A DNA stretch of 64,000 nt. Source: Diphasiastrum complanatum (lineage: Eukaryota; Streptophyta; Lycopodiopsida; Lycopodiales; Lycopodiaceae). Shown here in pieces: positions 8,457-44,752 of this stretch. How positions within the stretch are numbered: position 1 is the stretch's first letter; each line of letters starts with the position of its first letter. A program made the position numbers and the translations under genes. The stretch lies in assembly GCA_029204225.1 (NCBI GenBank), contig CM055102.1, forward strand, positions 29,254,969 to 29,318,968, in the 5' to 3' direction. A model generated the notes under the pieces. It did no database searches, was not told the origin of the DNA, and worked only from the letters and a program-made list of their open reading frames with translations.

Positions 8457-8618
8457 TTACGATGCCTTCTCCTTGACCACATAAGGATAGCGTTGATAGA
8501 TAATATTGCTGAGTATAACCAGAGGGAGAGCTCCTAGCACATAAACTGATGGGGGGATATCGTCAACAGCATACTGTAAAAAAGCTGTTACCACCAAAGC
8601 TGAGACAATCACAAATCC
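8457..8618 (-). CDS. ROCK1: Transporter exon 7 (last, 53 codons plus stop)
   Basis: The exon starts after acceptor 'ttggtag' at GGA TTT GTG, encodes [17 protein letters not shown] through [10 protein letters not shown], and stops at TAA (8459-8457). It contains the last two hydrophobic spans of the carrier. Phase 0 with exon 6. Confidence 0.92.
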   Translation of the reverse strand, partial: GFVIVSALVVTAFLQYAVDDIPPSVYVLGALPLVILSNIIYQRYPYVVKEKAS

Positions 8619-11600
8619 CTACCAAAATGATAATACGCACAGCATTAGTATTTCTTGAACTCTCCAAGATCTAAATAGATCATAACCGATTTTTAGCAAA
8701 ACTTTTCAGGTCACAAGCGTGCCTCGAGCTTATGTCGTATGGGCATTTTATGAAATTTTAGTAACGTGTTTGACATTCTGGAACCTCAGGCAAACAGAGT
8801 AAAGTTACTAGCCAGATACAGCATGCAATTTTTCATTCAAGCCAGCAAGTAATGTAGATTCGCCAAACAAAATGACTTCTCCACGAGCAAAAAGTGAAGT
8901 GATATTCAAGCTTGTTGCTGAGAAAAAGTTGGCTTGCTTAAGTATAAAGACCCGTGGAGCACTGTAAGTGTCTGAACAACTGTCTTCACAAAGAAGAAAA
9001 TTGCCCTTCAAGGAGTGTACATAATTAGTTTTCAATATCTTGCAGTAATGCTGTAAAGACCGATGTGAGCAATTACCAAAAACCAATTGCACTTCAAGGA
9101 GAGTACATAACTTGTTTTGAATATCTTCCAGTAATGCTGTAAAAACTGCCGTGAGCAATTACCAAACACCTAAAGGTCAAGCCTTGGAAATGGGCAGACA
9201 GCATTTATTGCAAGGAAATGCCGATGCAAACTTTCACCGAAATTTACTAAATCTTAAACACACAACAACTACCAAACAGAATTCCCAAAATGCATGCTTA
9301 AAAGAAAAGAAGAACGGCCCTCCTTTCTACTGTGGGAATCAACAAGTTCACAAGAGGTTATATTTACACTCTTTGTGGAACCATTGTAGTAAATTTTTTG
9401 ATGAGGCCCCTGTCTATGTAGATACCTAACAAGCAACTAAATCTCTTTCCTGAAGGGTAAGACAAACAAACTTTGCATACCTTTTTCACTCCACCAGCAT
9501 AGGTGGTCACTAGACCCACCAAAATTCCACCAACAGCATTTGAAAAAATTGGTAACTGCATAATACTTAAATTTAATTAATTGCTGCGTACTAGAAATTG
9601 AAAACTGCTATAAGCAATCTGAGAAACTTTAAATGCATGATCTTGAAATTTACTTAACTTACCCAAGTATAGATTGTCCATCCTGAAAAAAATCCTTGCT
9701 GTTTGATGGCATTCCCATCTGGAGATTTTATCATACTAACCAATAGGCACATGCTAGCGATTGTTGACATCTCCACTGTCATTAAATAGCTGCTTCTTCT
9801 TTTAATCTTACAAACATTAAATTTCTATTAGAGTAATCGAATCATACTTTAAGAGGGAAAAAGCAAGGATTGTAAACATTTTGAGATATCTGACTTGAGA
9901 TAACCATTAGAGATATCTCACCTGAGATGCCCATTGACAGAGTGTTGATGCCAGGCCAGACAGAACGGAGGCGACCAGTACAGGTACTACCCCGAAAAGA
10001 AAAGTTTGTCCATTATCCAACTCGGAGGGAACATGAGATGCATTTTGACTGATGCTAATCAGCAAAGCAGCTACAAGCAACAGTAGCAGGGCTCCAACTT
10101 GTTGCTTAGATTGCTTATGCCTGCAAGAGATTGTGCTTCAACAACTTCAATATATTTCAAGTGACCTGCAATTGTCGACCAAATTAAAGAAAAATCACAT
10201 ATCAGAGTTACATATAAGTAGCATGCAAACTAGAGGCTCATTCAAATTAGCTGTGGAGTAACATTTAGAAAAAGTAAAGACGGTTGTAGACATTGTAAGC
10301 GTGTTCCATTAGTTACTGGAAACGCTACAGATCATTCTCAAGCATAGGACGCATCGTATAATCATATAGAAATAATTCTCCAGTGCTGGAATTCTGATGG
10401 TGAACTCGGAGACCTAAAGTTTGATATCTGGAGTTGCACACTCATAAAAGATCTATCACACTGATATAACCACACAACGCGATAGGAACAAATTTTTGAT
10501 ATTAAGCGATCCTAGAGATGTATTAACAATCAAATATCAATACGTTCTCAGGTGTTGCACAATGGATGGCGAACTCCTAGGCATAAAGTTTGGTATCTTG
10601 AATTGCACACTCCTCTTAGATCTATCACAGCAATGTAACCACAACACACACATATGAACAAATTTTTGAAATGAAGAGAACCCAGAGATGAATCAACAAT
10701 AGAAACATTATATTGATGTGTAAAAGTACAATACAGCACAGATGGAGCACCTTGTAGATTATCAACACTTACAAACAAAGTCAAGCATGTAGCACCTGAT
10801 AGACAAAATAGAGCACAATCTGAACATCCCATAGAATCTCATAAGAAGAACTCAAGAGAATCCTCAACATGTTGATGGTAGCCCTCCAACAAATGAATGG
10901 AACTCAAGCATCAAATCAATCTGAGTGGAAGGCATGACTACTGCTATTGTTTAGGAGGCCCTTAAAAGGAACCTCTAAGAAACATGATACATTTTACCCC
11001 ACCACTTGAGTTATTAGCCTAATCAGCATAAATGAAAATATGGACCATCGGTCCAACTCAATACATGACCATGTGAATAATAATGATTGAGGGATCAAAT
11101 AAAGGCCATGGATAATGTATGTACCAGTTAGACTCGTATGTCAATAACTTTCAAGCACTAACAAAACCGTTTTCCTCAATGTAGGCAATAAATGGAAGAG
11201 TTGCATATGAATTCTAAAATATGAAGTTAATGTAAGCTGCAAAATATACACCCATAAAAGTGCATATGCTAGAGATGTTGCCGCAAAAATGTAAACATTG
11301 TATAGCAGACCACAAAAATGCATATTGAATAAGTAGCCTCAACATAATGAAGCCACAAAACTGGAAGAATTGTTGAATGATAATATGAAACTCTGCCAAG
11401 CCAGACACATGAACATAGAACACCAAATGATTGCATTGTGATGAGCGTCATATGAACCATACAGTTTTGCATAGCTTCACTCACCCATACTTTTTTTATT
11501 CAACCTGCTCATCTCAATTAGGATCAAAATCAAATCGATTAGAAAATGATCAAGAACTACTCAAGATGAGTGGAGTGGTTGCAAAAATTTTCACACACAT

Positions 11601-14600
11601 TTTCCCAGATCCCAGGCCACTTGAAATCAGTCATTTCTCCATAGTTTTCAATCATTCAAAGCAGAAACAGCTAGTTGGAGGTCAAGCACCCATTGTGATC
11701 AGCCCAGTAGGAACTGAAAGCGTTCCTTTTGGTCAATTAGAGAGGAAGAACAAAGGAGAAGGCACAACCATCACGCCTAGCCCTGTGCATGAGGCCCAAA
11801 AATATTTCTTACTTGGTGCTTCTAAGGTGGGATGTCCCTCCAAAACGCAGATGGTTCAACGCGCAACCAACCAACGAGTGCCACTTCATAGGACCCAGGG
11901 AGATTTAACACCAGCCGTTGAATCTAAGGGGAATTAGGTTCCATATTCATTTCTCAAAGAAAATTTCATTTTTTAGGGTTCTAAGGTTTAAAAAAGAGGA
12001 GTTCTTCATTAAAAATTCCCCCAGTGGAATTTGAGCTGGGTCCCTAAGGGCAGACCGTTAGTTTTCAAACATTGTTCACGATTGGGTTCTTGCAAGAAAA
12101 TGGCCATAAATGAAAAAATAGAGTGATATTGACGTTGGAAAACGCAACACAAGCAGAAATGTTTGTGTACAGGAGCAATCTGTAAGTAATAGGCCATGTG
12201 CTAAGCCAAAAATCTCCAAAAATGGAGCTTGGATGGCAGAAAAAAAGAAATTCTAAGAGCGCAACAAACTCTATGGTGGCAATTTTTTTAGCTTACTTGC
12301 CAATTAAGGCAACTTCTCTTCCTTTCTGACAATGGTTCCCCACAACTTTGTGAGTGTTGTAGAAGCTAGAAGTTTTGACGAAGGACAATAATCAACAATA
12401 TACGGTGACGCTTGCAAAAGGGACAGATACTAAAGTCTGGAACACGATAATTCTAAAACTACACTTTTGATGCAAAATTGCATCAAGCAGACACACTTCC
12501 ATGTACTGAATCTCAATAGGACTAATGTGACTCTAAAATATAATGGTTCTTTAAAAATACACTAGAGAATTGTGTATTTTATGATGTTCATAATGATCCG
12601 AAGGTTTCCATTTTAGGCGAGAAAGATAATCCAACTTGTATTGCGCATTTGAAAATAGAAAAGTTCTCAAAAGTTTTGAGTATAATGAAATTCAAATATT
12701 GCCGAAGTTGGAAGGTACATTTCAGTGCTATTGAATCTTGTAGCAATAATTTATACCTAAGATTGCCTCAAATTTTCAATTCTCATGGTGGGCATTATGG
12801 CTCACTAGGTGCTCTGATTTGTCTTGAAAAAATTATATAAGGCCTCATGGACAGTGATCTACCTCCCTCTCTCCTTTGCTGAGCTCTATATGCTTGCTTT
12901 CCTCTCTTGCTACTGCGATTTCCAGCTTGGCTTCTCTTACTGAGGAGCTGTGGTTTCCAGCTTGTTACACTGCTTCTTTACGGGTGTAGAGGGCAATTTA
13001 CAGGTATGTTTCTCCCTATAGACCAGCGATCTGCCTCCATGGATGCTTGGGGATCTTTTGGTGCTTATTCTGAAGCATGTTTTACTGTTTTGAATGCATA
13101 TTCTTGACAGCTTTACTGCTCTTTAATTGTAGCAGAACGAATACCGTTTACAAGTGTAGCATTTACTCAGCAATAGTACACTTATTACTTTCAAATTAGT
13201 GCCCATTTATTCATAGAATCTAAGTGATTCTCAAACTTGGAGTAGACTAATCTTATTAGTACTCACAAAATAACCAAACTCAAGAGGAAGAAGAGGAATC
13301 ACAAGAACAGTGAACTGAATTGATCTGAATTGATAATGAAGGAGGGCGCCCATCTGCTCTTATAGAGATTGGACATGCTTTAAGGCAAAAGCTATTTGCC
13401 TACCATACCATTTGGTAAAAGCAACTATGCTAATTACAAAGTCTACAAAATAGCAATCTATGCTAGCATGATTATAAAATAGTATTCTATACTATTCTAG
13501 CAAAATTGGTACTAACTTAGGTACCTAGCCAATCTTAGACTTTGACTTATACTAAAAATAAGAATAGGCCTTTGAACTAGCTCGTTGGCCTCTACAATTA
13601 ATTAATTAACCATTAATTCTAACACTCCCCCTTAATGGATAATAGATTATCAATTACACCTAGGAGTGTCCTAAACTTCTCAAACTTTTCACGACCAAGT
13701 CCTTTTGTGAAGATATCTGCAACTTGATCATTGGTGTCACAGTAGATCAACTCTACTTCACCACTCTGCAACTTTTCTGGTATTAAATGCTGCTAAACTT
13801 CAATATGCTTTGTCCTGCTATGAAACACCGGATTTTTCGCAAGCTGAATGCAACCCTGATTGTCACACCAAAGTACTATAGGTTCAACGTGTTCTATATG
13901 AAGATCTTTTAGAATCCTTCGTAACCAAATTGCTTCACAAAGTCGCTGATGTAGTAGCCCTATACTCTGCCTCTGTAGAAGATAAAGCAATCATTGGTTG
14001 CTTTTTACTACTTCTAGATATAGCTCCAGTTCCAAGACTAAATGTATATCCTGTAGTCGATCTTCTATCTTCTGCATTTCCTGCCCAGTCAGCATCAACA
14101 AAACCCTCAAGTTTTATGTATGTTCCTTTACCATAATAAATGCCATACCTGAGTGTCCCTTTGACATAACGCAAAATCCTCTTTGTTGCTTTCCAATGAC
14201 AAACTTTTGGTAAAGACATGAATTGTCCATACCCACTGCATATGAAATGTCTGGTCGAGTAGTCGCTAGATAAATCAGACTACCTACAAGCTGCCTATAA
14301 AGTGTTTCATTCACACTTTCAGAATTCTCCTTTTTTGTAAGCTTTACACCTAAATCATAAGACGTAGTAATGGGCTTACAATCAAGCATGTTAAACTTCT
14401 TGAGTAATTCTCTTGCATACTTTGCTTGTGATATGAAAAGATTTTCCTTTGACCTCCAAACTTCAATACCCAAACAATACTGAAGACTCTCAAAATCTTT
14501 CATATCAAACTCCTGTGAAAGATTGTTCTTTATCTTCTCTATTAGTGACTTATTTGATATTGTGATAATAAGATCATCTACATAGAGAACAATAATGACT

Positions 14601-17290
14601 ATGTCATCTGAATCTTTCATAATATATAGTGTTGACTCTGACATGCTTTTATGAAAATTCTGCTTCAAAAAATAATTGTTGATGCGTGTACCATGCTCTA
14701 AGCGCTTGTTTCAACCCATATAATGCTTTCTTTAACTTGCAAACCAAGTGCTCCTTGTCTTCAACCTCATAACCCTAAGGTTGCTCCAGATAAACCTCCT
14801 CTTCAAGGTAACCGTTCAAGAAAGCACTCTTGACATCCATTTGTTGAATATCCCATCCAAAATGAGATGCAATCGCCAAAACACTCCTCAAAGTATTCAT
14901 TTTAGCAACAGGTGCGAAAGTATCTTCGTAGTCAATTCCTTCCCTCTGAGCATATTCTTTGGCTACTAATCTGGCTTTATACTTATCTATAGAACCATTA
15001 GACTTAAACTTGGTTCTATAAATCCACTTGCAACCAATCGGTTTCTTACCAACTAGAAGCTCGTTTTTCATAATAGAACTGTACTCCTCATCCATAGCAG
15101 TCTTCCAAACTTGTTCCTTAGCAACATCTTCATAAAATAAGGTATCCTTTTCTTTTGCTCTGCAAGCTTCTTCCTGCACTCAAAAGCAAAGTAATTGCAA
15201 TTCCCCTTCCTTCAAGGTGTGGAAGAAGTATTCGAGGAGGATTGCGCTTCTGACATCTGCAAGTTCTCCATTCCTTGCTCAAGTGTTTGTGGTGCTCCTT
15301 TGTTCTTGCCTTTACCTTTCTTCTTATCCTTGGCTGGATTTTGCTTCTTCTTAGAAGCAAAGGCATGCTCCTGGAAATCTTCCCTCTTGGAGAGATTAAC
15401 TCTCCTCATCTCCTCCTGTAACAAGAGGCCATAGCCTTCTTCATAGGTAGGGATCTTCTCTCTCACAGATATCATCATCACAAAGTTCTGATAAGCATAT
15501 GACAAGCTATTCAGAACTATTGGCACCAAGTCTTTGTCAGCAATAGACTCTCCAAGCACAAAAAGCTGATATCTAAGATCCTGAATCTTAGTAAGATGAT
15601 CAGTAACTGTCTCCCCTGTCTCCATTCTGAGAGTATACAACTTGTTCTTCAAGTAGAGAAACCTAGTTGTACTTGTTGTCTCATACAATGCACAAAGAAT
15701 GTGCCATGCATCCACAGGCCCTTTGGCTGACCTGATTAGAGGAATCACATTATCCCTCACTGACATGTTGATGCTCATGTGTGCATTTTCCCCTCTCTTG
15801 ATATAGTCCTTGAGTTCAAGTTCAAATGTTGGAACAACCTCCTCACCTGTCACAAGCTTCCAACATTCTTTGTCTTCAAGAACGTTCTTGATCTTGAATT
15901 TCCATATGCTAAAGTTAGTGCCATCAAGTCGGCTGGCTTCACTCAGCATGCTCTCTGACATAGCTATAAAACACAAAAGGCAAACTGGGGTTTTCACCCA
16001 ACTAGGGTATACAGCCACTTGCTCAATAGCCCTTAGCTTCTGGATTTGAAACTATCCCCCTGTATGGCTATCCTAGCCCTTGTCCACGATCCACTCAAAA
16101 CTTTCACTGAAGTCCCACTATAGAAAGCGCCCTCCTACAGTCATGGCTGTCCAAAAAGACTCAAAAAATTGTCCCAAATTAGAAACTTTTTGGCTCCCTG
16201 TACTCCCCTTGCCAACAATACTCCAACCATGCAGATAGCACAGAGATCAGATGCCCCTACAAAAAGGGCTCCCTCCTCAAAGGTAAGCTGCTCTCCAGGA
16301 ATGGCAGGAATCTGATCAAAAATAGGTCCAAGCTTTCACCACAGCACAGGCAACATAACCTACTCTGATACCATGACAAATTCCAAGGCCTAGCTATGGA
16401 GTATCATAACAGCATAGTAAGCACACTATGAAAGCTTGAAAAAACCAGCTATGGAGTAGAACACAAAAGCAAGAGAGAGAGGACTTCAAAGCTCACACAA
16501 CTCGAATGATTATTCAACGAGTAGTAGGGCGTGGAAACCGCTCCAAGCTTTGGGCTACATTTAGCATGTAATGTATAGAGGTGGTGTCTTGTTAATTCTA
16601 GCTCTAGAACCCACATGGGTCCTCAACCTACTTGTTATTACTTGCCTAATTGGCACAAGTGGGGTGTACTATGTACATAAATGTTTTACCCCCATGTCTT
16701 ATGCACAACTTACAAGTTACAAGTATACAAGCCTTAAGGGGCAAAATAGACATTTATTTCAACACATTCATGGCGGCATTTGGATCAAGATGTTACAAAT
16801 GTACCCTAATACCGACATCTATGTCAAAACTAGACCCATTCCACTCTGGTAAATGATTACGACTGCTTCTTTGAGGCTGTAATACTATCGTATGGTGATG
16901 ATAAGGTTTCTTGCCTAAGTGCTGATCAGTATGGCCTTTATTCTGATACAGTGTTACTAGGGCAAGACCTATTACGAGTAAAATAATCGGTACAGAAGAT
17001 TGGACTATTTATGATACATTTCATTTAAGCTTTTATGTAGCGAATCTTGTTTCGGACATGGATAACAACTTATGCTCAATTATGACACTTGTCTTCCTCA
17101 CTGTACTAATTCATGCGGTTTTGTTGGTAATATGGTGGCGGGTAACAGTTGAATGTCCTAAAACTTGCTTCACTTTATGGTGCTTTTGTACTGTAAGACT
17201 ATCTTTAGCTTCTTAATACCTTGTTATGCTATAAAACAAAGGGTTAAAAAGGTTTGGTCTTGACTTGTCAAGAGGAACTATGTGAAATCT

Positions 17291-17322
<32 letters not shown>

Positions 17323-19831: not shown

Positions 19832-19912
<81 letters not shown>

Positions 19913-20009: not shown

Positions 20010-20071
<62 letters not shown>

Positions 20072-27109: not shown

Positions 27110-27171
<62 letters not shown>

Positions 27172-33100: not shown

Positions 33101-33288
33101 TTGATTCATCTACAGACCCTTGGGATCTGCAGTCAGGCACAGATTCAGATGACTACCATGACTCTAACGAGCCTGTAGTTTTCATTATGTTCATGGAACA
33201 TCATTGTACTCCATTTTGGTGCCATGTGGCCCGATATTATATATTACGATGATCCTATTCACAGCAGTGTAATGATTCAGTACTGTTC

Positions 33289-33374
<86 letters not shown>

Positions 33375-33520
33375 TATGGTTGAAAAACGATTCCATATGG
33401 TTGAAAAATGCTTCAGTACGGTTCAAGACGATGCAGTATGGTGATTGGTTCAGAACACTTAGCATGGTTTTTGTTTAGCATGATTCAGCATTTTTGTTTA
33501 GTTTGTTGGATCTGAGAGAG

Positions 33521-33555
<35 letters not shown>

Positions 33556-36500
33556 AAGGAGGGAGAATTTTGGGCATCATGTTTTTTTATTAATGCACCT
33601 GGGAGTTAAAGCGTAAACCTGGGAGTTAATGCACCTAAACTAGACCATCCTGCACCCGAAACATTCGGCAAAATACACAGTAATTTTGCTCTTAATTAGA
33701 GCTTTCATCTGATACCCATATTGCACAAAAAAAAACCCACAAAAAAAATAATTAAAAAAAACGTTTCTGAAAAAAAATTCCATATTTCCGAAACGCGTTT
33801 CAGAAACGCAGTGCAACTATGACTAGAATTGGAATTTTTGTTACTAGTACGTCACTATTCAATTTTCAATTTGATGAGAAAAGGTATCTGTCAACTGAAT
33901 CTAAACCATTTCTTGTCTAGGTAAGGCAACACCGTCATCATAAGAAGTAAGCATCAAAACAGGAAAATCAGCATAAGGTACTGATTTTGGTGAGGCATGT
34001 GTGTTTCCTCCAAAGTAAAAAGATGCTTTGTTATCCGCAAAGACTCGGACAGCCAACAAGAGGCTGTAGCAGGCTGTCCAACAGCCACAAAATCACCAAC
34101 ACTTTGCTATCCAGAGTGTTCCAAATGCGGACCTTGTTGTCCAAAAACCTTCCATGGGCCACGATGTAACATAGGCTGAAAATGATCAATAAACCATGGC
34201 TAAATATGTTGTCCACCATCTTCAAGAAAAAAACCATCAGCTTGCCACTTTGAACACCCAAAAAATCCAGCAACACGCCACTTTGAACCAATGTACTAAT
34301 TGACATGATTTTTTCCCCTCCTCCATTAGTACAAAATGACTTCAAAGAATGCTTGATTTCAGCCTTTTTCAAAACATTAACACTTGCAACAAATGGCTCA
34401 AGAGAAGAAGAATGCTCTACCATACCAACATTCAAATGCAAACTTGTACTTGTAGAAAGACAATGATCAAACTTTGCATGCCTTTGCTCTTCTACCTTCA
34501 AAGAGGATAAAGTAGAGAGGAGAAAGCATGATGATGAATCCTTTATTCCATACATCTTTAAAAGTGTTTCCCAAGCAATTTTAGAGGTCTTGCAAAATCT
34601 CAAATGATATAAGATAGATCTTGTTACCGATAAATCAATGAAAGAGCTTGATCATCACGTCGATGCCAAACCTCAGCTTGCAACTCCATGAAGAATAGTT
34701 GGTGCCATCCAACATATCTTCGCCCAAGCAAGTACGAATTGCTCCCAAATCTCTTGCCATAAGAACTAGCCAAGAAGATAAACTTTTTCAAACCCTAAAT
34801 GTGCCCTAAAAGACACAAAAACCAACAAGTACAAATCTGAAAAATCAGCACCGGAATGTGTCGAAACCACACATTAGATGGATGTAGGAAGTTGCCCTCC
34901 TACAAGCCTTGTGTGCTGAAAATTTCAGCCTGAAATTGCATTACAAACGCACTGCAACCTAAAAAATCAACAAATAACCAACTGATTTTTGGGCGCCCAA
35001 AATCCTACCATCTCCTTTGATGTGTGGCGCCCTCCTACAAAATGGAAAAGAGTCAAAACTAAACGGATCTTCACTCCAAAAAATCAGCAAAGGTGCTGAG
35101 TTTTTGTGATCCCTAAGTGAAGACGATCTCTTTTGGTAGGGCGCCCTAAATCAAGCATAGAAGATCCATGGCTCTGATACCATGTAGGAAATCAAAGTGC
35201 CAAGATCCTTCTAACATTCAATCTCCATATACAAGAAGAAGAAGAAGAAGAAGAAGAAGAGGGAGAGGATTAGGCGCCCTCAAGGAGAGAGAAAGTAGTA
35301 GCAATGCTTGAAAGGGAATGAATTACAAATGAATAATGAGCACATATAAATAGGCCTTCCAAGGGCCTAGACTCTTCCAAACCCTAAGTTCTAGAACCTT
35401 CCAAACCCACTACTAATTATAAGGCACCCCCAAAAGTCAAGATAGGGTCCCTTAACATAATTAGACTTTACTTGGACCCACGAGTTACTACTAGACCAAA
35501 ATTGGGTCCAACTTAACTAAAGCTGACTTGACATGGTCTAAATAATAAACCTAACCCATGGTTACACAAGTCTCGACCTTTTGGGTCAAAGTAACCTATG
35601 GGAAACTAACATTATTTTATTATTTCTAACACACGAGATGCAAGCACCCTAAATACAAGCGGTGTGTATGAATACGGTTGTGCTGCAGGCTAGACAGGGA
35701 CAACTCCTCGTGGATAGTAACCTGCTGGAAAAAGGGGTCTATGAGTGGAACCCTCTGATATGACAGGAGTAGGTCGTGGTGCAACTGCTGTGAGATGGGG
35801 CCGAGGCTGTACACCAATCGAAAAAGCTGGTGTAACATGACAAACTGGCCCAAGGAGGCGACGTGCACGTGTCGGTGGTGGAATGTGGGGGGCAGTTGTA
35901 TAAGTGGATGCAACAACTGAACTGGGTGGCTGAGCAGGAGGAGCCGTATGTGTGGGAGCTGTATGCCTAAGAGCTGTACGAGTGGGGGCTGTATGAGTAG
36001 GAGCCGTAAGAGTGGTAGTCGTATCTGTAGCAATTGATAGTGTTGGATCTGGCTAAATATGTGCATGTGGTGAGCCACCCTAGATCGTCAAACTCAACCT
36101 CACCCTGTCCAAACTGAAGGAGGTCTGACAAGGTCCTCTGGCGAACACGGCGGGTCCGATCTGCATCATCATCATGAGGAGCATCTGCAAGGGCCTGTGA
36201 ATCCTGCAAACCATCAATCCCTCCCACTGTGGCACAAGCATCTTCACGCTCTGATGTATCCCCTGCATAAGCGTCCTGTGCCATATGGTCAGCATCCCCA
36301 ACATGTGCTGCATCCACTGTCTCTCTCCCATGCTGTATATCCTCTGTTGGTGGATCAGACCGATACACATCCTGCTCTGGTGGATCTGGCTCATACATCC
36401 CTGCCATCATCCTCTGTAATCTCTCATCCCCCAGGCCATAGTCAAGCTCTGCCTCAACCTCTGCCTCAGCCCTACTCTCCAACCCGGGAGCAGAAATACC

Positions 36501-36610
36501 CATCATCCTTCTCATCCTCCTCATCAACACCCATGCCCATATCTGTCCCCTGGCCAGGACCTATATCCTGATCATGACCCACGTTGTCCATCAACAACCA
36601 TCTGACCCAC

Positions 36611-36708
<98 letters not shown>

Positions 36709-39700
36709 GCAATGTTAGTTGCAACATCATCCCTCTGCATGGGTCTGGTGGAATCAGTGAGATCATCAATGCCTAGTACACACTCCGAGGGGGGTAACAC
36801 CTCCAAAGGGTCCACAATAGATGCAAGTCTGTCACCCAACCTTGCATTGGTGTTGCAAAAAACCAGTCGTGCCATCTCTACAATAGTAAGGTGATTACGC
36901 CTTTTCGCGTGAATCAATGAAAATGTGCTCCAGTTGCGCACGCATACACTGGAGGAACAATCATGGTGACAATCATAAAATTCAGAAAAGCGTATTAGTT
37001 CCTTTCATCCATTTAAAAGGTATCTTTAATCACATAGAACTTGGTGGGTAAAGAAATACCTGTGATAAAGTTCCACCAAGTCACCACTTTCTCCCACTTG
37101 CTAGGATTCAGCGCCACATGATGGCCAAACACACCAACCTGCCTCTTAAATGCAATGTACTGTGTCTCTACAGCATTTATGTCAGTGAAGTGTCTGGTGG
37201 CTCCATCCAAGTATATCAACCAATGTCTAATGCCTGCCGCTGAGATAGCCACATGGGATGCAACAGGTGGGCAACAGAATGAATCAGCCTAAGGAACCAA
37301 TTCCACCTGCGCTTCTAGATGTCCCGCAACTCCACCATCTTGTTTCACATAGTAAATGACATGTCACCAAAAAACCCCGAAGATGTGAAGATGACAACAA
37401 ACTTATCCCAATTACACTAGACAGATTCAAAAACAACAAATGACTGAAACGAAATAAAGTACCATACCTGTTCTCCGAGAAAAAATGCTGCTTTAGAAGC
37501 TGTCCAATTCCATATCCATGAACTCGTAAATAAGGCCCATAGTGCTGCCCTCTCTGTCAACTAACCGTAGAACATGGTAGAATGGCCTCATCACAGATGT
37601 ATGCTCTCAGCCTCACGCCAAAAATCATCGTCAAATGCAATCAAAAAACTCTCAAATCATCAGGCCTAGTGGAGAATGGTAGCTCCCTAAATGCATCACT
37701 AGTGGCCATGTGTCTAAGCTGATGTCTGACCCTAAGAAACCTATCCATGACAACCAGGTTGAATGCAAAACATGTGGGAGTTGGTTTCTTCAGATCTAGT
37801 GAACTGAAGGTGCGGAAAAGGGCCAGGGCACGCCTCTTCCGGGTGACAAATGTCACCACGACAAGGGCCATCTCAACTATCCTGCGGACCCAGGGCAAGT
37901 GGCCCATATCCCCCAATCAATGCTATGTGCAGCACAGGGGGTCCATACAAAAGCAAGGTACTGCTGCTGTAGCAAGTGAGACATTTGCACACAATTACGC
38001 GGTGACAACCTGCACTACGTTGGCAAGGCCAACCTCCTCTATAACCTCATTGATGACATCGACCATAAATTGTCCGTCAATGCCCATCCCACCTCTACTA
38101 GCATCAATGGTGCGATAAAACATACTGCCCAAGCAACAAGACACCAGTATGTTGATCAGTGGCCGTCGGCGGGTGTCACTCCAGCCATCAGACATGATCG
38201 AGCACGCATAGCTCTCGCAAGCCTTCCTCAAAGGCATCATCTGTGTGGTGAGCTCCTCGACCCTGGATGTCAAGGTGGGTGGTACGGACAGTCTCAGCCG
38301 TGGGTGACCTGAAGCAAGGACCTGCAAAAGCAACTGCAACTGTAGCCATCTTCAAGGGCTTTGAGTCAGCAATGGCAAATGGCAGGTTCAGCTCATAGAT
38401 CATGTTTGCCAAGACACCAGTATGTTGATCACTGGCCGACAGTGGGTGTCACTCCAGCCATCAGACATGATCGAGCATCCATAGCTCTCCCAAGCCTTCC
38501 TTAGAGGCATCATCTGTGTGGTTCATGCCACAGATCATGTACTTAATTAATTAATTTTATTTTGGACCCTTTTCCTCCCAAAATTCCTCCCAACGGATTT
38601 TTGGTCCTCATTTCATTGCTTTTGTGCTAGAGATTGAGACAGAGGGAGCGTGGAGGTTTTAGGCTTATTTGTCTATTTCTTTTGCTTGTTCTTGGCCACC
38701 TTAGGGTTTAGGGTTTTGCTTGATAGAGTTCAGGTTTGGAATCCCCAGGAGAACTGCATTGCGTGGGAGCGCATATCCACTTATCCAGGACCGGTTTTCT
38801 GTGACCAAATGGTAACTCATTTGTCTTTGCTTGCACTTCTTATTTCTTCACTTCTGTATTACCTATTTCCTATACCATCTCACACCATGCCTGCTAGTGC
38901 TATGCCTGAGCTATGGGGTGTGGTAGACCAAGACCTCGTGTTCGTTAGGTCTGACATTTGGTCTGGGATGCGTGGATGGAACTGTAGGTTTTGTCATGGT
39001 CATTTTGTCAGCACTCTCACTAGGTTGAAAGGCCATCTCCTTGGTGTTGTCAAGGGTGATGGCAAACGCTTGGGCTCCCTCCCTTGCGCACACATGCTTG
39101 GTCGGGAGCGTTGTGAGCTCATTGACATATACGGAGCACGATTGACGCAGGCCGGTATGTCAGTAGATCTTTATGTATATGCAGTAGTGTCATCCACCCC
39201 ACGAGATGCACTTGCTCTCGTCCACCACCACCACGTCCTCCCTAGCCTCCTGTTCCTACTCCTCCCCCACAACCTAATGCACATCCACCACTCGTTCCTC
39301 AGCCCACTGCACCACGTACTACCGCACCACCACAGCCCACTGCACCACATCCCGCCCCTTCTTTTGCTGCATCTATTCTTGTGGGTGCGTTTCCACAGCG
39401 TCCTCCTGCGGTCACTCAAATGACTCGCCCAATGCAGACATTCCGATTTCTTCGCTTTGAGTCGGCACCAGAGGTCGTACAGGACACCCAGGACATACCA
39501 TCCACTTTCCCCCACATCAGAATGATTTGGAATCTGATGATGAGGATGGTGATGATGGACAGCATGGTGAGGCTGATTCATCTGGAGCTTCTTCACCACC
39601 ACCTCAGCAGCCCCAACATCCCCCGTAGCCGTAGCATCCCCCTCAGCCACCTCAAGCCCAGTTTCCCCCCAGCCTCGGCACCCCCCTGCCACTGACATAC

Positions 39701-42700
39701 CTCTTCCTACTCCTCGTAGGGGTGCTTACCGCACTAGGGCATCCTCCAGTAGATCGTCTCGCACCTCCCAATATAGACAGCAGTCCATAAGGGAGTCTTT
39801 CCAGCCCCATCTTGAGGCAGAGGCCCAATAGGCTTTAGCAAACATGATCTATGAGCTGAACCTGCCATTTGCCATTGCTGACACGGAGCCCTTCAAGAGG
39901 GCTATAGCTACAATTGCTGCTGTAGGTCCACGCTTCAGGCCACCCATGGCTGAGGTTGTCCGTACCACCCACTTTACTTCCAGGGTGGAGGAGCTCACCA
40001 CACACATGATGCCTCTTAGGAAGCCCTGGGAGAGTTATGGGTGCTCGACCATGTCTGATGGCTGGAGTGACACCCATCGTCGGCCAGTGATCAACATATT
40101 GGTGTCTTGCTGCATGGGCACTATGTTTTATCAAGCCATTGATGCTAGTAGAGGTGGGATGGTCATTGATGGACAGTTTATGTTCGATATCATTAGTGAG
40201 GTTATAGAGGAGGTTGGTCCTGCCAACGTAGTGCAGGTTGTCACCGACAACGCAAGTAATTGCGTGCACATGTCTCACTTGCTACAACAACAGTACCCTG
40301 CTATTGTATGGACCCCCTATGATGCACATAGCATTGATCTTATGTTGGGGGATATTGGCCGATTGCCTTGGGTCCGCACGATAGCTGATATGGCCCTTGC
40401 CATGGTAACATTTATCACCTGAAAGAGGCGTGCCCTTGCCCTATTCTGCACCTTCAGTTCACTTGATCTGAAGAAACCATCTCCCACACGTTTTGCATTC
40501 GACCTGCTTGTCATGCATAAGCTTATTAGGGTCAGACATCAAATCAGACACAAGGCCACTAGTGCTGAATTTAGGGAGCTGCCTTTCTCCAGTAGGCCTG
40601 ATGGTTTGAGATTTTTGAGGATTGTATTTGACGATGATTTTTGGCGTCAAGCTGAGAGCATCACATCTATGATGAGTACGCTCTACCATGTTCTACGGTT
40701 AGTTGACAGTGAGATTTGGATTGGTTGAGATACTTGGATGGAGCCGCCAGACACTTCACTGAGACACAGTGAATTGCCTTCAACAGGCAGGTTGGTGTGT
40801 TTGGCCATCATGCGGCGCTGAATTCTAGCAGGCGGGAGAAAGCGGTGACTTGGTGGAATCTCTATGGTTCTGCATGCCCAGCTCTACAAAAGCTGGCCTT
40901 GCGAGTGCTATCACAGGTATTTCTTTACCCACCAAATTCTATGTGATTAAAGATGGGTGTTAAATGGATGAAATCAACTAATGCGCTTTTTTTGAATTCA
41001 ATGATTGTCAATAGGATTGTTCCTCCTTGATTACAGAGTATGATGGCAGGGATGTATGAGCCAGATCTACTAGAGCAGGATGTGTATCGACCTGATCCAC
41101 TAGCAGATATACAGCATCAGAGAGAGAGTGGATGCAGCACAAGTTGGGGGTGCTAACCATATGGCACAGGACGCTTATATGTTGTTGTACCCAAGAAAGC
41201 TTGGGATATTCTAAAGAATTTGTACAAGACTGTGAATCAATGTCGAATCTTGTTCTTGACTAATAAGCTACGTACGTTATAGATGGGTACAGGTGAATCA
41301 GTAACGGACTACTTTAATGAGGGGAAAGATTTGAGAGGGCAACTTATTGCAGTTGGAGAAAGTGTTTCGAATTCAGTGTTGGTATCTATCATGCTTAATA
41401 GTCTACCTTTGGCCAATCAAAACTTTGTGATGATGTTGTCTTTACAAGAGACGAGGCCTTCTTTCGATGAGTTGAATGCTATGTCAGAATTTGTTATACA
41501 AATTCTAGATGGAATCTACTATTCCTACTAGCACTCACAAAGCAAGCATAGAGATTAAAGAGATTATAGATTATAGAAGAATTGAGCAAACCTCTAAACA
41601 ACTGGAATAAACTAAGGTGAGGTGCCAACCTACATATATAGTTTCTCTAATCTATGTGAAAAGCTAAAAGCATAAAGCAAATAGCAAAAGACAAAAAAAG
41701 CTATTTGCTAATATATCTACCTATATTGGATAAAGACCCAAGATGCGTTTCTAAGCAATAAAAAAATCCTAATCTAGTAGTAGTGCGCCCACCTACATGA
41801 TGAGTAATGAAAAAAATGACTTACTATAAATAGTACTAACCCTAAAATACAACTTACAAAAAATAGTAATGACGTAGGCATGGCCAAACTCACATTAAGG
41901 GGTACCAAACATTAATTCCTAACTCTCCCCCTTAATGTTTACTTTGTTATTATCTATTACTCCTAGAAGTTTTCTAAACTTATAAAAAAATTTCTTTGCC
42001 AAGTCCTTTGGTAAAGATATTTGCAACTTGCTCTTCCGTAAGACAATAGATAAGCTCCACTTCACCACTCTGAATCTTCTCTTTGATGAAGTGTTGTTGT
42101 ACTTCAATGTGCTTTGTCCTGTTGTAAAAAACAGGATTTATCGCCAATTTAATACAACTCTGATTGTCGCAATGAAGTACCGAAGGTGTATCCTGTACCA
42201 TATGTACATCATGTAGAATCCTTTGTAACCATATTGCTTCACTTGCCGATGATAATGCAATATTATGCTGCTTCTTTGAACTCAAAGAGATAGCACCAGA
42301 ACCAAGACTAAAAACATAACCTGTAGTAGATCTTCGGTCTTCCGCATATCCAGCCCAATGAGCATCCACATATCCCTGTAGCTTCAAATCATCATGTCTT
42401 CCATAGAGAATACCAAATCTCAAAGTACCCTGGATATATCTGAGTATCCGCTTAGCAGCTCTCCAATGAATCTGCTTAGGCTTAGCCATAAACTTACAAA
42501 CCATACTCACAACATAAGCAATATCTGGTCTTGTAGTAGTTAGATAGATTAAGCTCCAACAAGCTTTCTATATAACGTCTCATCTACATCTTGATCCTCC
42601 TCAGCTTTAGTAAGCTTACATTATAGAATCAATGAACCGTGGGTAGTTCACCGTGGTTCTAAGAACCATACGGATCTAAAAAAATTTAACCTGGAACCGT

Positions 42701-44603
42701 GGTGAACCGTACAGGTAATTAATTAATTAATTACTTTTTTTTTTTGGTCCCACCTCCAAAAATAGCCCAAAAAAATGCCAGAAAAATGCCAATATGACCA
42801 TCCCTGATCAAAACATAAAATGTATGCTCCGAACTACTCCGAAAGCCAAGCTCCTCAAAGCATTTATGACTTGGTCCTGGCACATCTGTATAGCTTGGCA
42901 AAGATTCACTTAATCTGTTCGCAACCATTTCCAATTATTTTGCTCACTTATTCGCATTGTTGAAACTCATTCAGCATGTGCATTTGTGTGCTCTAATATA
43001 TATAATACAACGTCAATGTTTGATAGCAGCATCTACATCATATGCATCTTATAGCTCATATTCTGTAGAACTACATCAGTTTAGTGTATTAACACGTACT
43101 GGTAATATTCCATCTATCACCAACATGGAGGCCAATGTTTTTACTACTATGGAAGGGTTATGGACATATGAGTTGGACCCAAGTCATGCTTTAATTTTTC
43201 AGTGACAATTCAAACTGATTACGACAGTGACCTTGTGGTAGGGGGCATACCGTGTTCGAAAGCAATAAACATAATTTGTGATGCTTTATGTGTGATTTCT
43301 TTCATAACAACAAACAAGCCTCAAATAATTACATTAATCAAAGGTAACGAACAATAGAATCAAAGGTGACCAAATGGTCTGGACATACGGATCATGTACG
43401 AAATACATTCATGCTACAGCGAATCAAAAGGGTTTTAAGTAATTCTTACCCAAGAATCAAAAACATGAACAGCGCAGTGAACAGCAACTTGGTCTGGTTC
43501 AGCAGAGAAAACGTGAGTGAATCAAGATGGCGATAAGATAGTTGCAACAGAGGATTCTGCAAGGCGTAAACCCCCGCTGGAAGTGCTGACGCTGTCAAAG
43601 CATCAAAAAATTGCCAATTTTTGCAAATGCTCTCAAGACTTCCCTCCCATGCCATGACAGCCAATGCACAAGCAACCTGCATTCACAACATTGTCATATC
43701 AAAAACATATAGATGCAAACGAGCATCAGCACAAGGAAAAAATCTTTTCGACATGAACCTAGTTAACGGTAATTTGGAGTGCGACTTCCTCAAAAAATGA
43801 ACATTGAGATGATTGTTCGCTGTAGCTCCAACATGGATCTAAAAAATTGGCACTGAGCTGATACTAGACCATCTATGAATGTACCTTCAATACTTCACAA
43901 GACAGCACAATAGAAGTCATTATCACTTGTTTCCTGCACAGCAGAATTTAGTCAACGCTGTAATCCAGGTAAACGTTTGGTTCAAACTTCAAAAGATTAC
44001 AAAATGCTTCTAAAATAAAGGCCCGCATAGAAGATAAGCTGGTGGCTTTGTAACAAAACAACACGAAGCTTAACAACAGCCAGAATCAAACGCGAAAAAA
44101 CTACTCATCGTGAGATCCTGTAAACAACAGACTCATACTTTGCTACGTGCAATAAGGGAAGCGACAACGCGATGTTTTAGCCATTTATCAACCGAAATAC
44201 GAGAAAACCTAAAAGGAGTCCCGTGGTGGAATACTCCAGAAGGATGAACTCTATCTACTAAATTTCACGCTGAAAAAGAGCACGTTCCAAGCAATGTCAT
44301 CAAAGTACTCTCACAAAAACGACAGGCAGAAGAGCATTATAAAGAACCGCTTGAAAAGACGAAAATCTGAAATCAATATCATGATAAACCTAACACGAAC
44401 ACGCTATTTGAACGAGGCAAAAGGGTTACAACACAAAAAAGGAGAAAAAAAAAAGGCGGAGACAAACCCTACCCGCTGAAGCGCTTGGAAAGCAGAGGCT
44501 GCACGCCATATTGGATCGTCAGCAAAACCATACACAACCATGCTCGTTTTTGTCGATCCTGCTCCGGCTGCAATTTTCCTTTCACAGACGACTCGGCAAC
44601 CAT
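8457..44603 (-). CDS. ROCK1: ROCK1-type nucleotide-sugar transporter, 7 exons
   Basis: Seven exons join in phase into a 328-residue protein, close to the roughly 325 residues of Arabidopsis ROCK1 as I remember it. ROCK1 is an ER multi-membrane-span carrier that imports UDP-GlcNAc and UDP-GalNAc. Conserved family blocks are in order: [13 protein letters not shown] (exon 1), [11 protein letters not shown] (exon 2), [20 protein letters not shown] and [11 protein letters not shown] (exon 3), [16 protein letters not shown] (exon 4), [11 protein letters not shown] and [13 protein letters not shown] (exon 5), [13 protein letters not shown] and YAGGVKK (exon 6), [17 protein letters not shown] (exon 7). 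Every intron has GT-AG borders and matched phase, with no stop or frameshift. The start ATG at 44603 fits the family N-terminus. The C-terminus is lysine-poor (KEKAS). Intron 3 is 33,329 bp; the others are 107-862 bp. Family identity is strong. Substrate specificity is inferred from ROCK1. Confidence 0.93.
8999..9170. repeat. 86-bp tandem duplication inside intron 6
   Basis: Two adjacent 86-bp units (8999-9084 and 9085-9170) begin aattgcccttcaaggag and aattgcacttcaaggag and end with 'gagcaattaccaaa' followed by acc. They differ at about ten positions. The repeat lies within the 862-bp intron 6 and does not touch splice sites. Confidence 0.85.
9481..9555 (-). CDS. ROCK1: Transporter exon 6 (25 codons)
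   Basis: The exon runs from acceptor 'tatgcag' to donor 'gtatgc'. It encodes [17 protein letters not shown] through YAGGVKK, one of the most conserved blocks of this carrier family. It is exactly 75 bp, phase 0 at both ends. Confidence 0.92.
9663..9806 (-). CDS. ROCK1: Transporter exon 5 (48 codons)
   Basis: The acceptor is 'tttgtaag' and the donor 'gtaagt'. It encodes [14 protein letters not shown], a hydrophobic span, then [17 protein letters not shown]. The start at ATT was chosen because it is the only nearby AG giving phase 0 with exon 4 and keeping the family block QWASQ-x-K intact. Confidence 0.9.
9922..10120 (-). CDS. ROCK1: Transporter exon 4
   Basis: A strong acceptor 'ctcttgcag' precedes it and donor 'gtgaga' follows. 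The first base completes the codon split with exon 3 (GG plus G). It encodes [17 protein letters not shown], then [14 protein letters not shown] and STLCQWASQ. The join to exon 3 is colinear with the family, with no missing residues, although the exons lie 33 kb apart. Confidence 0.92.
10384..10710. repeat. Tandem duplication of ~165 bp in intron 3
   Basis: Two diverged units start near 10397 and 10563. Shared blocks are 'tggtgaactcggagacctaa' against 'tggcgaactcctaggcataa', then 'gttgcacactc' against 'attgcacactc', 'gatctatcaca', and 'gaacaaatttttga'. Neither unit encodes anything recognisable. Confidence 0.6.
10711..13232. other. Intron 3 stretch, no recognised gene
   Basis: A 168-codon plus-strand ORF (11431-11937) has no motif I recognise and lacks supporting context. 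The remainder is AT-rich with stops in all frames. No terminal repeats were identified. Confidence 0.35.
13238..13623 (-). repeat. Copia 3' LTR
   Basis: It starts TGGAGTAGAC and ends TTCTAACA on the plus strand (TG...CA). The border is supported by alignment to the LTR at 41510, which starts TGGAATCTAC and shares the following 'ctcacaaa' block. A minus-strand polypurine tract (plus strand 'ctcccccttaatgg') follows immediately. Confidence 0.7.
13793..15179 (-). pseudogene. Copia reverse transcriptase-RNase H pseudogene
   Basis: Pol begins near 15179 with the block that opens copia reverse transcriptases ([63 protein letters not shown]). An in-frame stop near 14774 follows. The next segment holds the catalytic VLYVDDLII motif and RPDISYAVG (14668-14220). 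A frameshift near 14215 leads to RNase [37 protein letters not shown] and ALSSTEAEY. Another break near 13937 precedes [28 protein letters not shown] and KHIEV. This is typical copia order with at least three disabling lesions. The usual upstream protease and integrase are absent. Confidence 0.88.
15212..15961 (-). pseudogene. Copia gag polyprotein fragment
   Basis: An uninterrupted gag of about 250 codons. I chose the MSESMLSEA start rather than the upstream in-frame ATG at 16018, because the copia gag pattern ([19 protein letters not shown]) begins right after it. It has the UBN2-type middle ([58 protein letters not shown]). A lysine-rich tail ([19 protein letters not shown]) stands where a zinc knuckle would be expected, and no CCHC motif is visible. 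It ends about 30 bp before the reverse transcriptase block, marking the deletion joint. Confidence 0.85.
16362..16826 (-). repeat. Copia 5' LTR-like end plus primer-binding site
   Basis: Minus-strand TGGTATCAGAGT (plus 16362-16373) is a Met-tRNA primer site. The adjoining sequence 16374-16826 starts TGACA and ends TGTCA, a perfect 5-bp terminal inverted repeat as in copia LTRs. It is not similar to the 3' LTR of the same element. Confidence 0.6.
16832..17292. other. Spacer between copia and minisatellite
   Basis: No ORF or repeat ends were recognised. Confidence 0.3.
17293..17740 (+). repeat. (CT)n tract followed by a 31-bp minisatellite
   Basis: A (CT)n run (17293-17321) passes directly into about 13-14 tandem copies of a 31-bp unit built on 'gtttttggattttccagcc' plus a variable 12-bp part. 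Variants (ccagct, ccagcctata, ccaagctg) recur in a partly ordered sequence, hinting at higher-order units. The array ends about 80 bp before the first LINE ORF, so it may be the LINE 5' leader or promoter monomers. Confidence 0.85.
17821..18600 (+). pseudogene. LINE ORF1-like remnant
   Basis: It starts at ATG 17821 with a basic N-terminus ([13 protein letters not shown]). A frameshift near 17955 leads to a heptad-rich stretch ([34 protein letters not shown]) typical of the ORF1p coiled coil. Another shift leads to [17 protein letters not shown]. After a stop, a segment with [20 protein letters not shown] and [13 protein letters not shown] resembles the RNA-recognition and C-terminal parts of L1-type ORF1 proteins. 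It is presumably an RNA-binding chaperone in the intact element. At least two frameshifts and one stop are present. Confidence 0.6.
18600..19680 (+). pseudogene. LINE endonuclease domain remnant
   Basis: The endonuclease core is visible as GGVACLYQ, then [12 protein letters not shown], and the metal-binding signature LLVGDFNAR near 18905-18930. A stop at 18974 and frame changes follow. Further on, in another frame, [12 protein letters not shown] carries the catalytic SDH motif near 19220-19250. The N-terminal endonuclease motifs are absent, as though ORF1 and ORF2 were fused by deletion near 18595. The coding sequence runs into the hAT insertion at 19689. Confidence 0.75.
19834..20598. repeat. 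GA / GT microsatellite cluster and ttagaa repeats
   Basis: (AG)n spans 19834-19909, followed by a G-rich tract. Interrupted (GT)n and (GA)n runs extend from 19987 to about 20300. A short-period 'agttagaa' repeat occupies 20412-20550, and (GA)n 20574-20598. All lie in the left part of the hAT element, upstream of its BED exon. The purine-rich and alternating tracts could adopt triplex or Z-DNA, which is inference. Confidence 0.85.
20606..20778 (+). pseudogene. hAT transposase BED-finger exon
   Basis: It begins at ATG ([15 protein letters not shown]) and contains a BED-type DNA-binding motif, [19 protein letters not shown] then AHLLRLRG. The second cysteine of the C-x2-C pair reads tyrosine, so zinc binding is probably lost. 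The frame then runs directly into the integrase of the truncated gypsy element. Compare the better preserved finger NCRFCHGHF at about 38980. Confidence 0.65.
20786..22018 (+). pseudogene. Gypsy integrase plus chromodomain
   Basis: The integrase finger remnant ([25 protein letters not shown]) is followed by the DDE core: [20 protein letters not shown], and [19 protein letters not shown] with the catalytic glutamate. The DNA-binding C-terminal part has [10 protein letters not shown] and [11 protein letters not shown]. It ends with a chromodomain ([20 protein letters not shown]), which identifies the chromovirus clade and normally steers insertion to marked chromatin. Frameshifts lie near 20852 and 21486, where an extra T is present relative to the copy at 32030. 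Confidence 0.88.
22046..22490 (+). repeat. Gypsy 3' LTR (copy 1)
   Basis: It starts TGTTAGGGACCC right after polypurine tract gaagaggga and ends near 'aagattgta'. It is nearly identical to the LTRs at 28823 and 32596, differing at its last few bases. Confidence 0.85.
22498..23732 (+). pseudogene. hAT transposase C-terminal exons
   Basis: Four likely exons with GT-AG borders: about 22498-22571 ([15 protein letters not shown]), about 22739-22987 ([52 protein letters not shown]), 23194-23302 (ending [11 protein letters not shown]) and 23443-23732. The second is the hAT C-terminal dimerisation domain, recognisable from the W-W-x3-G and C-E-R-N-W-S pattern. The last encodes a strongly acidic tail of E, S and D followed by GRRLGRRRA and a stop. 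The same acidic-tail design is seen in the hAT copies at 36-41 kb. Confidence 0.72.
24548..25467 (+). pseudogene. LINE reverse transcriptase
   Basis: Upstream blocks [15 protein letters not shown] and [20 protein letters not shown] lead into the polymerase: [18 protein letters not shown] holds the first catalytic aspartate region, [20 protein letters not shown] follows, and [13 protein letters not shown] corresponds to the usual YADD box with A changed to D. A stop near 25007 (before the AGFR block) and another after SPTGL at 25467 interrupt it. Reading resumes in the same frame with [15 protein letters not shown]. In an intact element it would make cDNA by target-primed reverse transcription. 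Confidence 0.85.
25790..26160 (+). pseudogene. LINE C-terminal zinc-knuckle region
   Basis: The reading [17 protein letters not shown], stop, then CPVYYEI matches the cysteine-rich C-terminus common in plant LINE ORF2 proteins (C-x2-C, x8-12, H/N-x4-C-P). The histidine position reads asparagine. An acidic then basic end ([19 protein letters not shown]) is also visible before the element ends near 26165. Frames are broken. Confidence 0.55.
26171..28153. other. Intron 3 stretch with (CT)n and an inverted-motif cluster
   Basis: No gene recognised. A (CT)n microsatellite spans 27111-27168. At 27290-27455 the DNA is dense in ttcgaaac and gaatcg type motifs in both orientations, like the subterminal zones of the hAT elements, so it is probably a decayed element end ('cagggttgcc' at 27235 could be its terminus). 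The partner end was not found. Confidence 0.4.
28823..29281 (+). repeat. Gypsy 5' LTR plus primer-binding site (copy 2)
   Basis: The LTR begins TGTTAGGGACCC and ends GATTGTAATA at 29266. Two bases later comes tggtatcagagcc, complementary to the 3' end of initiator-methionine tRNA, the primer for reverse transcription. Its length, 444 bp, agrees with the 448 bp of the 3' LTR given one 4-bp indel. Confidence 0.9.
30146..31067 (+). pseudogene. Gypsy gag with truncated zinc knuckle
   Basis: ATG at 30146 ([15 protein letters not shown]). A predicted coiled coil ([19 protein letters not shown]) precedes the retrotransposon gag domain ([60 protein letters not shown]). A frameshift near 30750 leads to [15 protein letters not shown] and a lysine-rich linker. 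The nucleic-acid-binding knuckle starts as DNLCFKC but breaks off before the remaining ligands, the apparent joint of the pol deletion. Gag would form the particle in an intact element. Confidence 0.85.
31100..32568 (+). pseudogene. Gypsy integrase plus chromodomain (copy 2)
   Basis: It begins with the linker between RNase H and integrase ([17 protein letters not shown]), then the zinc finger ([22 protein letters not shown]) and the DDE core ([39 protein letters not shown]). It ends with the chromodomain, where the conserved W of the usual VRWKG reads R (VRRKE), so chromatin binding is doubtful. Lesions: frame change near 31213, stop after NFY at 31314, and a 72-73-bp tandem duplication (31846-31990) that adds stops. 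Confidence 0.87.
32596..33043 (+). repeat. Gypsy 3' LTR (copy 2)
   Basis: Directly preceded by gaagaggga and ending GATTGTAATA. It is followed by hAT-derived flank that resumes the 'gagccagagcacac' sequence seen just before the 5' LTR. Confidence 0.9.
33291..33553. repeat. (GT)n(GA)n and (GA)n microsatellites
   Basis: (TG)n runs 33291-33350 and passes directly into (AG)n to 33374. A second (GA)n lies at 33525-33553. Both are in the right arm of the hAT-type element. Confidence 0.95.
34031..35631 (-). mobile_element. Copia 5' end: LTR, primer site and decayed gag
   Basis: LTR 35183-35631 (TGTAGG...CTAACA on plus), primer-binding site (35182-35171, tggtatcagagc on minus), untranslated leader, then gag remnants. 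The gag signature is split by stops: [16 protein letters not shown] near 34640-34685, then [19 protein letters not shown] and [13 protein letters not shown] from 34603 down. Downstream gag is decayed and no pol follows. An (AAG)n run sits inside the LTR at 35233-35260. The element abuts the hAT pseudogene that begins just past 35631. Confidence 0.7.
35183..35631 (-). repeat. Copia 5' LTR
   Basis: About 449 bp with TG and CA ends. The lower end touches a perfect 12-base primer site, gctctgatacca on the plus strand (35171-35182). Confidence 0.72.
35640..38535 (-). pseudogene. hAT transposase pseudogene, minus-strand copy
   Basis: In minus-strand order: [13 protein letters not shown] (38404), the DUF659-type core with [20 protein letters not shown] and [17 protein letters not shown] (38339-37995), [20 protein letters not shown] and [12 protein letters not shown] (37916-37641), [18 protein letters not shown] then [11 protein letters not shown] (37252-37060), the dimerisation part [16 protein letters not shown] (36941 down), and an acidic tail (36530-36060). 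The N-terminal BED region is missing. A 48-base deletion removes the end of the WWNF exon relative to the plus copy. A duplicated piece of the core lies at 38415-38535. A (GA)n tract (36614-36705) is embedded within the coding region. Confidence 0.78.
36614..36705. repeat. (CT)n microsatellite within hAT coding sequence
   Basis: About 46 CT units. Read on the minus strand in the transposase frame it would encode an (Arg-Glu)n run directly after DDVATNIAA. Confidence 0.95.
38540..41165 (+). pseudogene. hAT transposase pseudogene, plus-strand copy
   Basis: A BED finger exon (38887-39170: [38 protein letters not shown]) keeps its C-x2-C pair. A long His/Pro-rich linker follows (39180-39830). 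The core (39844-40422) reads [36 protein letters not shown] and [15 protein letters not shown], the DUF659 and RNase-H-like catalytic region, ending at an in-frame stop. It continues as [20 protein letters not shown] to 40727, then [20 protein letters not shown] up to a donor at about 40917. The next exon (41035-41165, [16 protein letters not shown]) is the acidic tail. The dimerisation exon is missing. Confidence 0.78.
41170..41509 (+). pseudogene. Copia gag fragment (plus strand)
   Basis: [29 protein letters not shown], a stop at 41280, then [40 protein letters not shown] and [13 protein letters not shown]: the UBN2-type gag middle, related to the gag at 15212-15961. It begins abruptly after the hAT tail and ends abruptly at the LTR of the next, oppositely oriented copia. 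Confidence 0.75.
41510..42612 (-). mobile_element. Copia 3' end: RNase H and 3' LTR
   Basis: LTR 41510-41924 (starts TGGAATCTAC), minus-strand polypurine tract (plus 'ctcccccttaatg', 41925-41937), then RNase H reading from 42612. Blocks are [12 protein letters not shown], a stop, [87 protein letters not shown] and [13 protein letters not shown]. The RNase H reads through to its normal C-terminus, apart from a small deletion in the ALSST-x-EAEY block (now ALSSASEA). Everything upstream is lost beyond 42615. It belongs to the same family as the 3' half of the element at 13238. Confidence 0.85.
42616..43449. other. Intron 3 end, unassigned sequence
   Basis: At 42625-42715 there is a cluster of accgtgg and ccacggt type motifs in both orientations, like the subterminal zones of the hAT-type elements. 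No termini were identified. No gene seen before exon 3. Confidence 0.3.
43450..43676 (-). CDS. ROCK1: Transporter exon 3
   Basis: The acceptor is 'gaatgcag' and the donor 'gtaaga'. It encodes [20 protein letters not shown], then [37 protein letters not shown] and LFMFLIL plus two bases of a split glycine codon. It contains the invariant ALQN and LNQTK blocks of the carrier family. Its donor opens the 33-kb intron. Confidence 0.93.
43885..43933 (-). CDS. ROCK1: Transporter exon 2 (49 bp)
   Basis: A micro-exon between acceptor 'ctgtgcag' and donor 'gtacat'. The first base completes a split glycine codon. It then encodes [16 protein letters not shown], matching the family block before V-x-C/A-AL. 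It is too short to stand out as an ORF. Confidence 0.9.
44473..44603 (-). CDS. ROCK1: Transporter exon 1 with start codon
   Basis: ATG at 44603 begins [20 protein letters not shown], a polar cytosolic N-terminus, followed by a first membrane span [19 protein letters not shown] and FS, ending in two bases of a split codon at donor 'gtaggg'. The frame differs from the longer overlapping open frame there. It was chosen because only this frame gives the conserved [15 protein letters not shown] block and joins exon 2 in phase. Confidence 0.9.
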
Positions 44604-44742: not shown

Positions 44743-44752
44743 ATTTATCTGT

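Follow-up and report, generated by a model that had tools for sequence, protein, structure and literature searches.

A 64-kb stretch of the Diphasiastrum complanatum genome (C11:29254969-29318968, hereafter the window; genome of 1.745 Gb in 5,176 contigs) very probably holds one intact nuclear gene for a Golgi/ER-type transporter of the family PF04142, whose third intron would have grown through transposable elements and would be spliced as one unit. The gene lies on the minus strand (44603..8457), where its seven exons extend over 36,147 bp, the first three being separated from the last four by 33 kb of repeat-rich DNA.

Exon structure and reading frame

The original prediction had drawn seven exons with GT-AG borders, joined in phase to 328 residues without stops, and all of them were found at the coordinates claimed for them (Table 1). 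The exon model, including the 49-bp exon 2, is confirmed as a real and correctly drawn gene model. The joined coding sequence of 987 nt runs from ATG to TAA, and no internal stop interrupts its 328 codons. The six introns, of 539, 208, 33,329, 115, 107 and 862 bp, all have GT-AG borders, and their phases are 2, 0, 2, 0, 0 and 0, respectively. A processed pseudogene was rejected because these six introns are retained.

Intron 3 divides a glycine codon (GG/G), which is completed across the 33-kb gap, in such a way that the single codon proposed for the end of exon 3 and the start of exon 4, and the length proposed for the intron, proved to be exact. The borders of this intron are TGG/GTAAGAAT at the donor and CTCTTGCAG/G at the acceptor, corresponding to a consensus GTAAG donor and a TTGCAG acceptor. 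The whole window, intron 3 included, contains no N.

Table 1. Coordinates of the exons of the transporter gene, of its third intron and of the transposable elements in the window
Feature	Position	Strand	Details
Exon 1 (CDS)	44473..44603	-	131 nt, starts with ATG
Exon 2	43885..43933	-	49 nt
Exon 3	43450..43676	-	227 nt; ends with GG of the split glycine codon; PF04142 match in the whole-genome search
Intron 3	10121..43449	-	33,329 bp, GT-AG, phase 2, no N, GC 0.43
Exon 4	9922..10120	-	199 nt; begins with G
Exon 5	9663..9806	-	144 nt
Exon 6	9481..9555	-	75 nt
Exon 7	8457..8618	-	162 nt including TAA
Decayed Copia remnant	14117..16051	-	gag (Retrotran_gag_2) and two RVT_2 pieces above cut-off; same sense as the gene
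Ty3 3' part	20775..22493	+	chromodomain 41.1 bits, above cut-off; integrase core 25.2, below cut-off of 32.6; one LTR, 22046-22493
LINE-type reverse transcriptase piece	24937..25464	+	RVT_1, 61.5 bits
Reduced Ty3 element	28823..33043	+	LTRs 28823-29266 and 32596-33043; gag and SH3_Tf2-1 above cut-off; integrase core and chromodomain below cut-off
Weak Copia gag piece	34034-34651		in intron 3; under cut-off
Broken inverted repeat with DUF659 frame	36267..41178		DUF659 at 39832-40419, + strand, 148.4 bits
Second Copia-like piece	41907..42377	-	75.6-79.3% like 13608-14107
Copia piece	55866-56417		outside the gene; over its cut-off
Copia piece	63125-63814		outside the gene; under its cut-off

Family membership and related loci

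The 328-aa protein matched the nucleotide-sugar transporter profile PF04142 with 120.4 bits (cut-off 27, E 1.2e-34), from position 8 to position 314 of the 315 of the profile. When the two sides of intron 3 were scored separately against the same cut-off, the residues before it covered positions 8-131 with 39.2 bits, and those after it positions 135-314 with 70.0 bits. Each half exceeds the cut-off and the two meet at profile positions 131/135, which argues that their linkage exceeds chance. The assignment to the nucleotide-sugar transporter family was thus borne out over the full domain and in both halves, and so was the proposed colinearity of the protein across the gap of 33,329 bp, the halves aligning with neighbouring segments of a single profile. 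PF16913 (PUNUT, purine nucleobase transport) also passed its threshold (42.4 bits, cut-off 30.6), far below the score of PF04142, and the EamA cut-off was missed (19.8 vs 28.2 bits). By these profile matches, the predicted product is a nucleotide-sugar transporter of PF04142.

The exons on either side of intron 3 could instead be two unrelated fragments, or the product of an assembly misjoin, standing in order by chance. All that connects them physically is a repeat-rich stretch of 33 kb, the kind of DNA that is hardest to assemble in a genome, and a misjoin within it is conceivable as long as the sequence is considered by itself. Both versions have to account for exons that share strand and order, profile halves that adjoin, a matched phase 2, consensus splice sites and a stretch free of N, and more weakly for a genome search that found no PF04142 place besides a paralogue on C2. 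Two unrelated fragments were rejected on the adjacent profile halves and the matched phases, and the explanation as a whole is scarcely credible.

In this search of the plant's own genome for PF04142, all 16 candidates were scored and three matches were obtained, two at C2:4.81 Mb and one corresponding to exon 3 of the transporter gene. As only one of the seven exons of the gene itself was reported, the search is insensitive and constitutes weak evidence for a single copy; a near copy with a similar exon 3 would be expected to appear in it. An intact second copy had been named as the finding that would make this gene a pseudogene, and within the reach of this weak search the other PF04142 locus turned out to be a paralogous gene encoding a different family member (L004, G000:C2:4804000-4813900). 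The C2 locus was rejected as a second copy, since tblastn of the 328-aa protein against two C2 pieces (L001 and L002) gave only E values of at least 1.4 and since, in a hand alignment, L004 has a phase-2 intron whose position is four codons upstream of that of intron 3. Possibly, the L004 intron and intron 3 represent a shifted or an independently gained intron.

Solved CMP-sialic acid transporters (6oh2, 6oh4 and 6i1r) could be aligned to residues 25-312 with E values between 5.9e-16 and 2.1e-7, the best being that of 6oh2 (5.9e-16). They are homologous over this range, but distant relatives only: 6i1r, presumably from maize and named CMP-sialic acid transporter 1 in its entry, scored 33.6 bits, below the 61.6 bits of 6oh2, which we take to be the mouse protein. 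This alignment retains the blocks QN, LD and Q-x-K midway through the protein and GG and KGF near its end, and the lysine aligns with position 124 of the 6oh2 chain, presumably a phosphate contact. Nucleotide-sugar transporters of PF04142 have ten transmembrane helices; a plain hydropathy scan of the 328-aa protein gave 13 hydrophobic stretches, many of them overlapping, and no clear helix count. In the endomembrane system, the protein would most likely work as an antiporter, moving nucleotide sugar against nucleotide monophosphate.

Arabidopsis ROCK1 (At5g65000) presumably belongs to the same Pfam family and has a similar length, and the 328-aa product is a likely candidate for its orthologue. 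ROCK1 is an ER transporter of UDP-GlcNAc/UDP-GalNAc according to the available text of two reviews (PMC10951099, PMC8158104), from which we infer UDP-GlcNAc/UDP-GalNAc as the substrate if the gene is indeed a ROCK1 orthologue. Among the papers listed in a literature search on the gene structure of ROCK1 or NST-family genes, none with exon tables appeared.

Transposable elements within and around the gene

A Pfam scan was carried out on 30 of the 51 stop-to-stop frames of at least 120 aa in the window. Thirteen of the 30 gave a match at E ≤0.001 (11 in intron 3 and two outside the gene), nine of them with at least one match at or above the curated cut-off, and the 13 comprise 12 retroelement proteins and one DUF659. 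Among the frames scanned, those of transposable elements within the gene all lie in intron 3. The intron had been described as filled with transposons, and Copia, Ty3, LINE and hAT-like remnants together with a broken inverted repeat were indeed found there (Table 1), in such a way that transposable-element domains sit in an intron of an otherwise intact gene model, as is characteristic of plant introns expanded by such elements. The RVT_1 piece is taken by us to derive from a LINE, and the DUF659 frame presumably from a hAT transposon. In the second Copia-like piece, the ORF 41983-42567 gave no Pfam match. A tandem array of a 31-base unit in about 12 copies was also detected in the intron, at 17335-17741. 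Intron 3 was probably short originally, and would have grown by successive insertion and decay of these Copia, Ty3, LINE and hAT-like elements.

The reduced Ty3 element retains both LTRs, and no reverse-transcriptase frame was found for it among the 30 frames scanned of the 51 in the window. Its LTR pair is identical at 432 of 444 ungapped aligned bases, with 12 mismatches and 4 gap columns (K2P 0.028). Grasses have a substitution rate of 1.3e-8, faster than that of magnoliids, and at this rate, which may not be that of the host, the element would be loosely 1 million years old. With the magnoliid-derived rate used in PMC8626473 (1.51e-9 substitutions per site per year), which may not apply to the host either, its age would be roughly 9 million years.

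The broken inverted repeat is made of six pieces that are 86-95% alike in BLAST, and four pieces 72-91% alike appeared with looser settings. The longest pair of arms (37550-38412 and 39835-40713) shows 85.9% identity over 880 columns. A read-through transcript of this repeat could fold into a long double-stranded RNA.

Outside the gene, around 1.3 kb 5' of its ATG, a small element (45857-46711) carries terminal inverted repeats of about 150 nt that are 76% alike. Inside it, positions 46154-46511 (+) matched the Rfam bacterial LSU rRNA model with 99.1 bits. This stretch had 207 matches in bacterial plasmid records, 19 at 80-90% and 188 at 60-80% identity, mostly in alphaproteobacterial genera among those named; in the five plasmid matches listed, 53-55% of the query is aligned, at 70.5-72.0%. 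It is probably a mitochondrial rRNA caught in the transposon, as far as these similarities indicate. An inverted related copy of the arms, 85-88% alike, was located at 57097-57832, and the rRNA part was matched there only briefly, suggesting that one copy of the element gained the rRNA.

Candidate expression signals and long introns of other plants

At exon 1 and just upstream of it (44001-45000), the three 500-base steps gave CpG observed/expected ratios of 1.04-1.11, compared with an average of 0.47 for the 254 steps of the window. Values over 1.0 were found in nine of the 254 steps, these three and six others (starting at 19251, 27251, 28001, 45751, 46001 and 55001). The undepleted CpG at exon 1 would fit an unmethylated promoter, the signal not being unique in the window. 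No tRNA was detected in the 64-kb window, and the Rfam search at gathering cut-offs gave no RNA gene within the transporter gene or its introns.

Intron 3 contains 12 AATAAA hexamers in the sense orientation, which could permit early polyadenylation; with 14 in the antisense orientation, there is no sense excess. If the intron is retained, a stop follows directly after residue 136. In rice, according to the accessible part of PMC7145194, 5,809 introns in 4,227 gene models are heterochromatic, and transcription occurs at many of these loci. Loss of OsIBM2 leads to early polyadenylation within heterochromatic introns, early ends of this type being reported there for rice and Arabidopsis mutants.

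These observations bear on two other accounts of the gene. According to one, intron 3 is a regulatory switch, with early polyadenylation giving a 136-residue form and the balance being set by intronic heterochromatin. Both the truncation upon retention and the early ends of the rice and Arabidopsis mutants agree with it, but sense hexamers are not enriched over antisense ones, and we regard a switch as quite improbable. A specific version, in which the antisense Ty3 elements and the inverted repeat at 36267-41178 would attract heterochromatin or small RNAs and so set full-length against 136-residue form, appears most improbable. According to the other account, the gene died recently, with the transposon load of the intron halting transcription and the frame not yet decayed. 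The same stop after residue 136 would be compatible with this, as would the early polyadenylation that heterochromatic introns can give upon failure of the IBM2 machinery (PMC7145194, available text). However, none of the 328 codons and 12 splice borders is disrupted, despite the 12 mismatches in 444 bases of the LTR pair, and death at the landing of that Ty3 element would predict several changes in the 987 nt, leaving room for a later death. A dead gene is very unlikely.

A working gene remains the preferred reading. RNA polymerase would traverse the whole 36 kb, intron 3 included, and the spliceosome would excise the mass of transposable elements, linking exons 3 and 4 in one mRNA; the gene is accordingly predicted to be expressed and the intron to be removed as a unit. 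If heterochromatic, intron 3 may need help of the IBM2 type. Rice and Arabidopsis have working genes with heterochromatic introns that rely on IBM2; these introns carry transposable elements, as intron 3 does.

Introns of this size are known from several plants. In Cycas panzhihuaensis, the available text of PMC9023351 gives a mean of around 30.8 kb and a longest intron of about 1.5 Mb, located in an expressed gene, and names LTRs as the main content of long introns in Ginkgo. In Chloranthus spicatus, 876 of the 2,184 orthologues compared exceed 20 kb, with long introns rich in LTRs and coding length unchanged, and magnoliids, compared with other angiosperms, more often have long genes and introns (PMC8626473, in part). 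This source also reports that expression is higher for long-intron genes and falls once intron length passes 40 kb. The long introns of Cycas, Ginkgo, Chloranthus and magnoliids resemble intron 3 in their large size, and LTRs are their main content in Ginkgo and Chloranthus. In Cycas, expression was shown for the longest gene and for the gene with the longest intron, whereas it is predicted for the present gene. The average intron measures 3,681 bp in Chloranthus and, across six magnoliids, 1,270-2,390 bp, both much shorter than the 33 kb of intron 3; rice averages 372 bp and Arabidopsis 153 bp (PMC8626473, same sections). In larch, the portion of PMC9370799 available gives 10,153 bp for the longest annotated intron and shorter introns than in other conifers, partly perhaps owing to the annotation's own threshold; this maximum implies that 33 kb should not be taken for granted.

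The unusualness first ascribed to a 33-kb intron full of transposons was therefore overstated, as introns of comparable size and composition are on record for large plant genomes, yet the part of the claim that concerns length stands, since the intron is well above angiosperm averages. Intron 3 is long by angiosperm standards and ordinary in kind. The locus appears to be a nucleotide-sugar transporter gene of the usual plant type with its third intron swollen by broken transposons, for which well-documented cases exist. It adds one further example to this class of plant introns, of low interest unless RNA data reveal regulation through intron 3. Its lesson is one of annotation: a single gene model can include exons that flank transposon remnants at a distance of 33 kb, and a gene finder that caps intron length could split the transporter gene.
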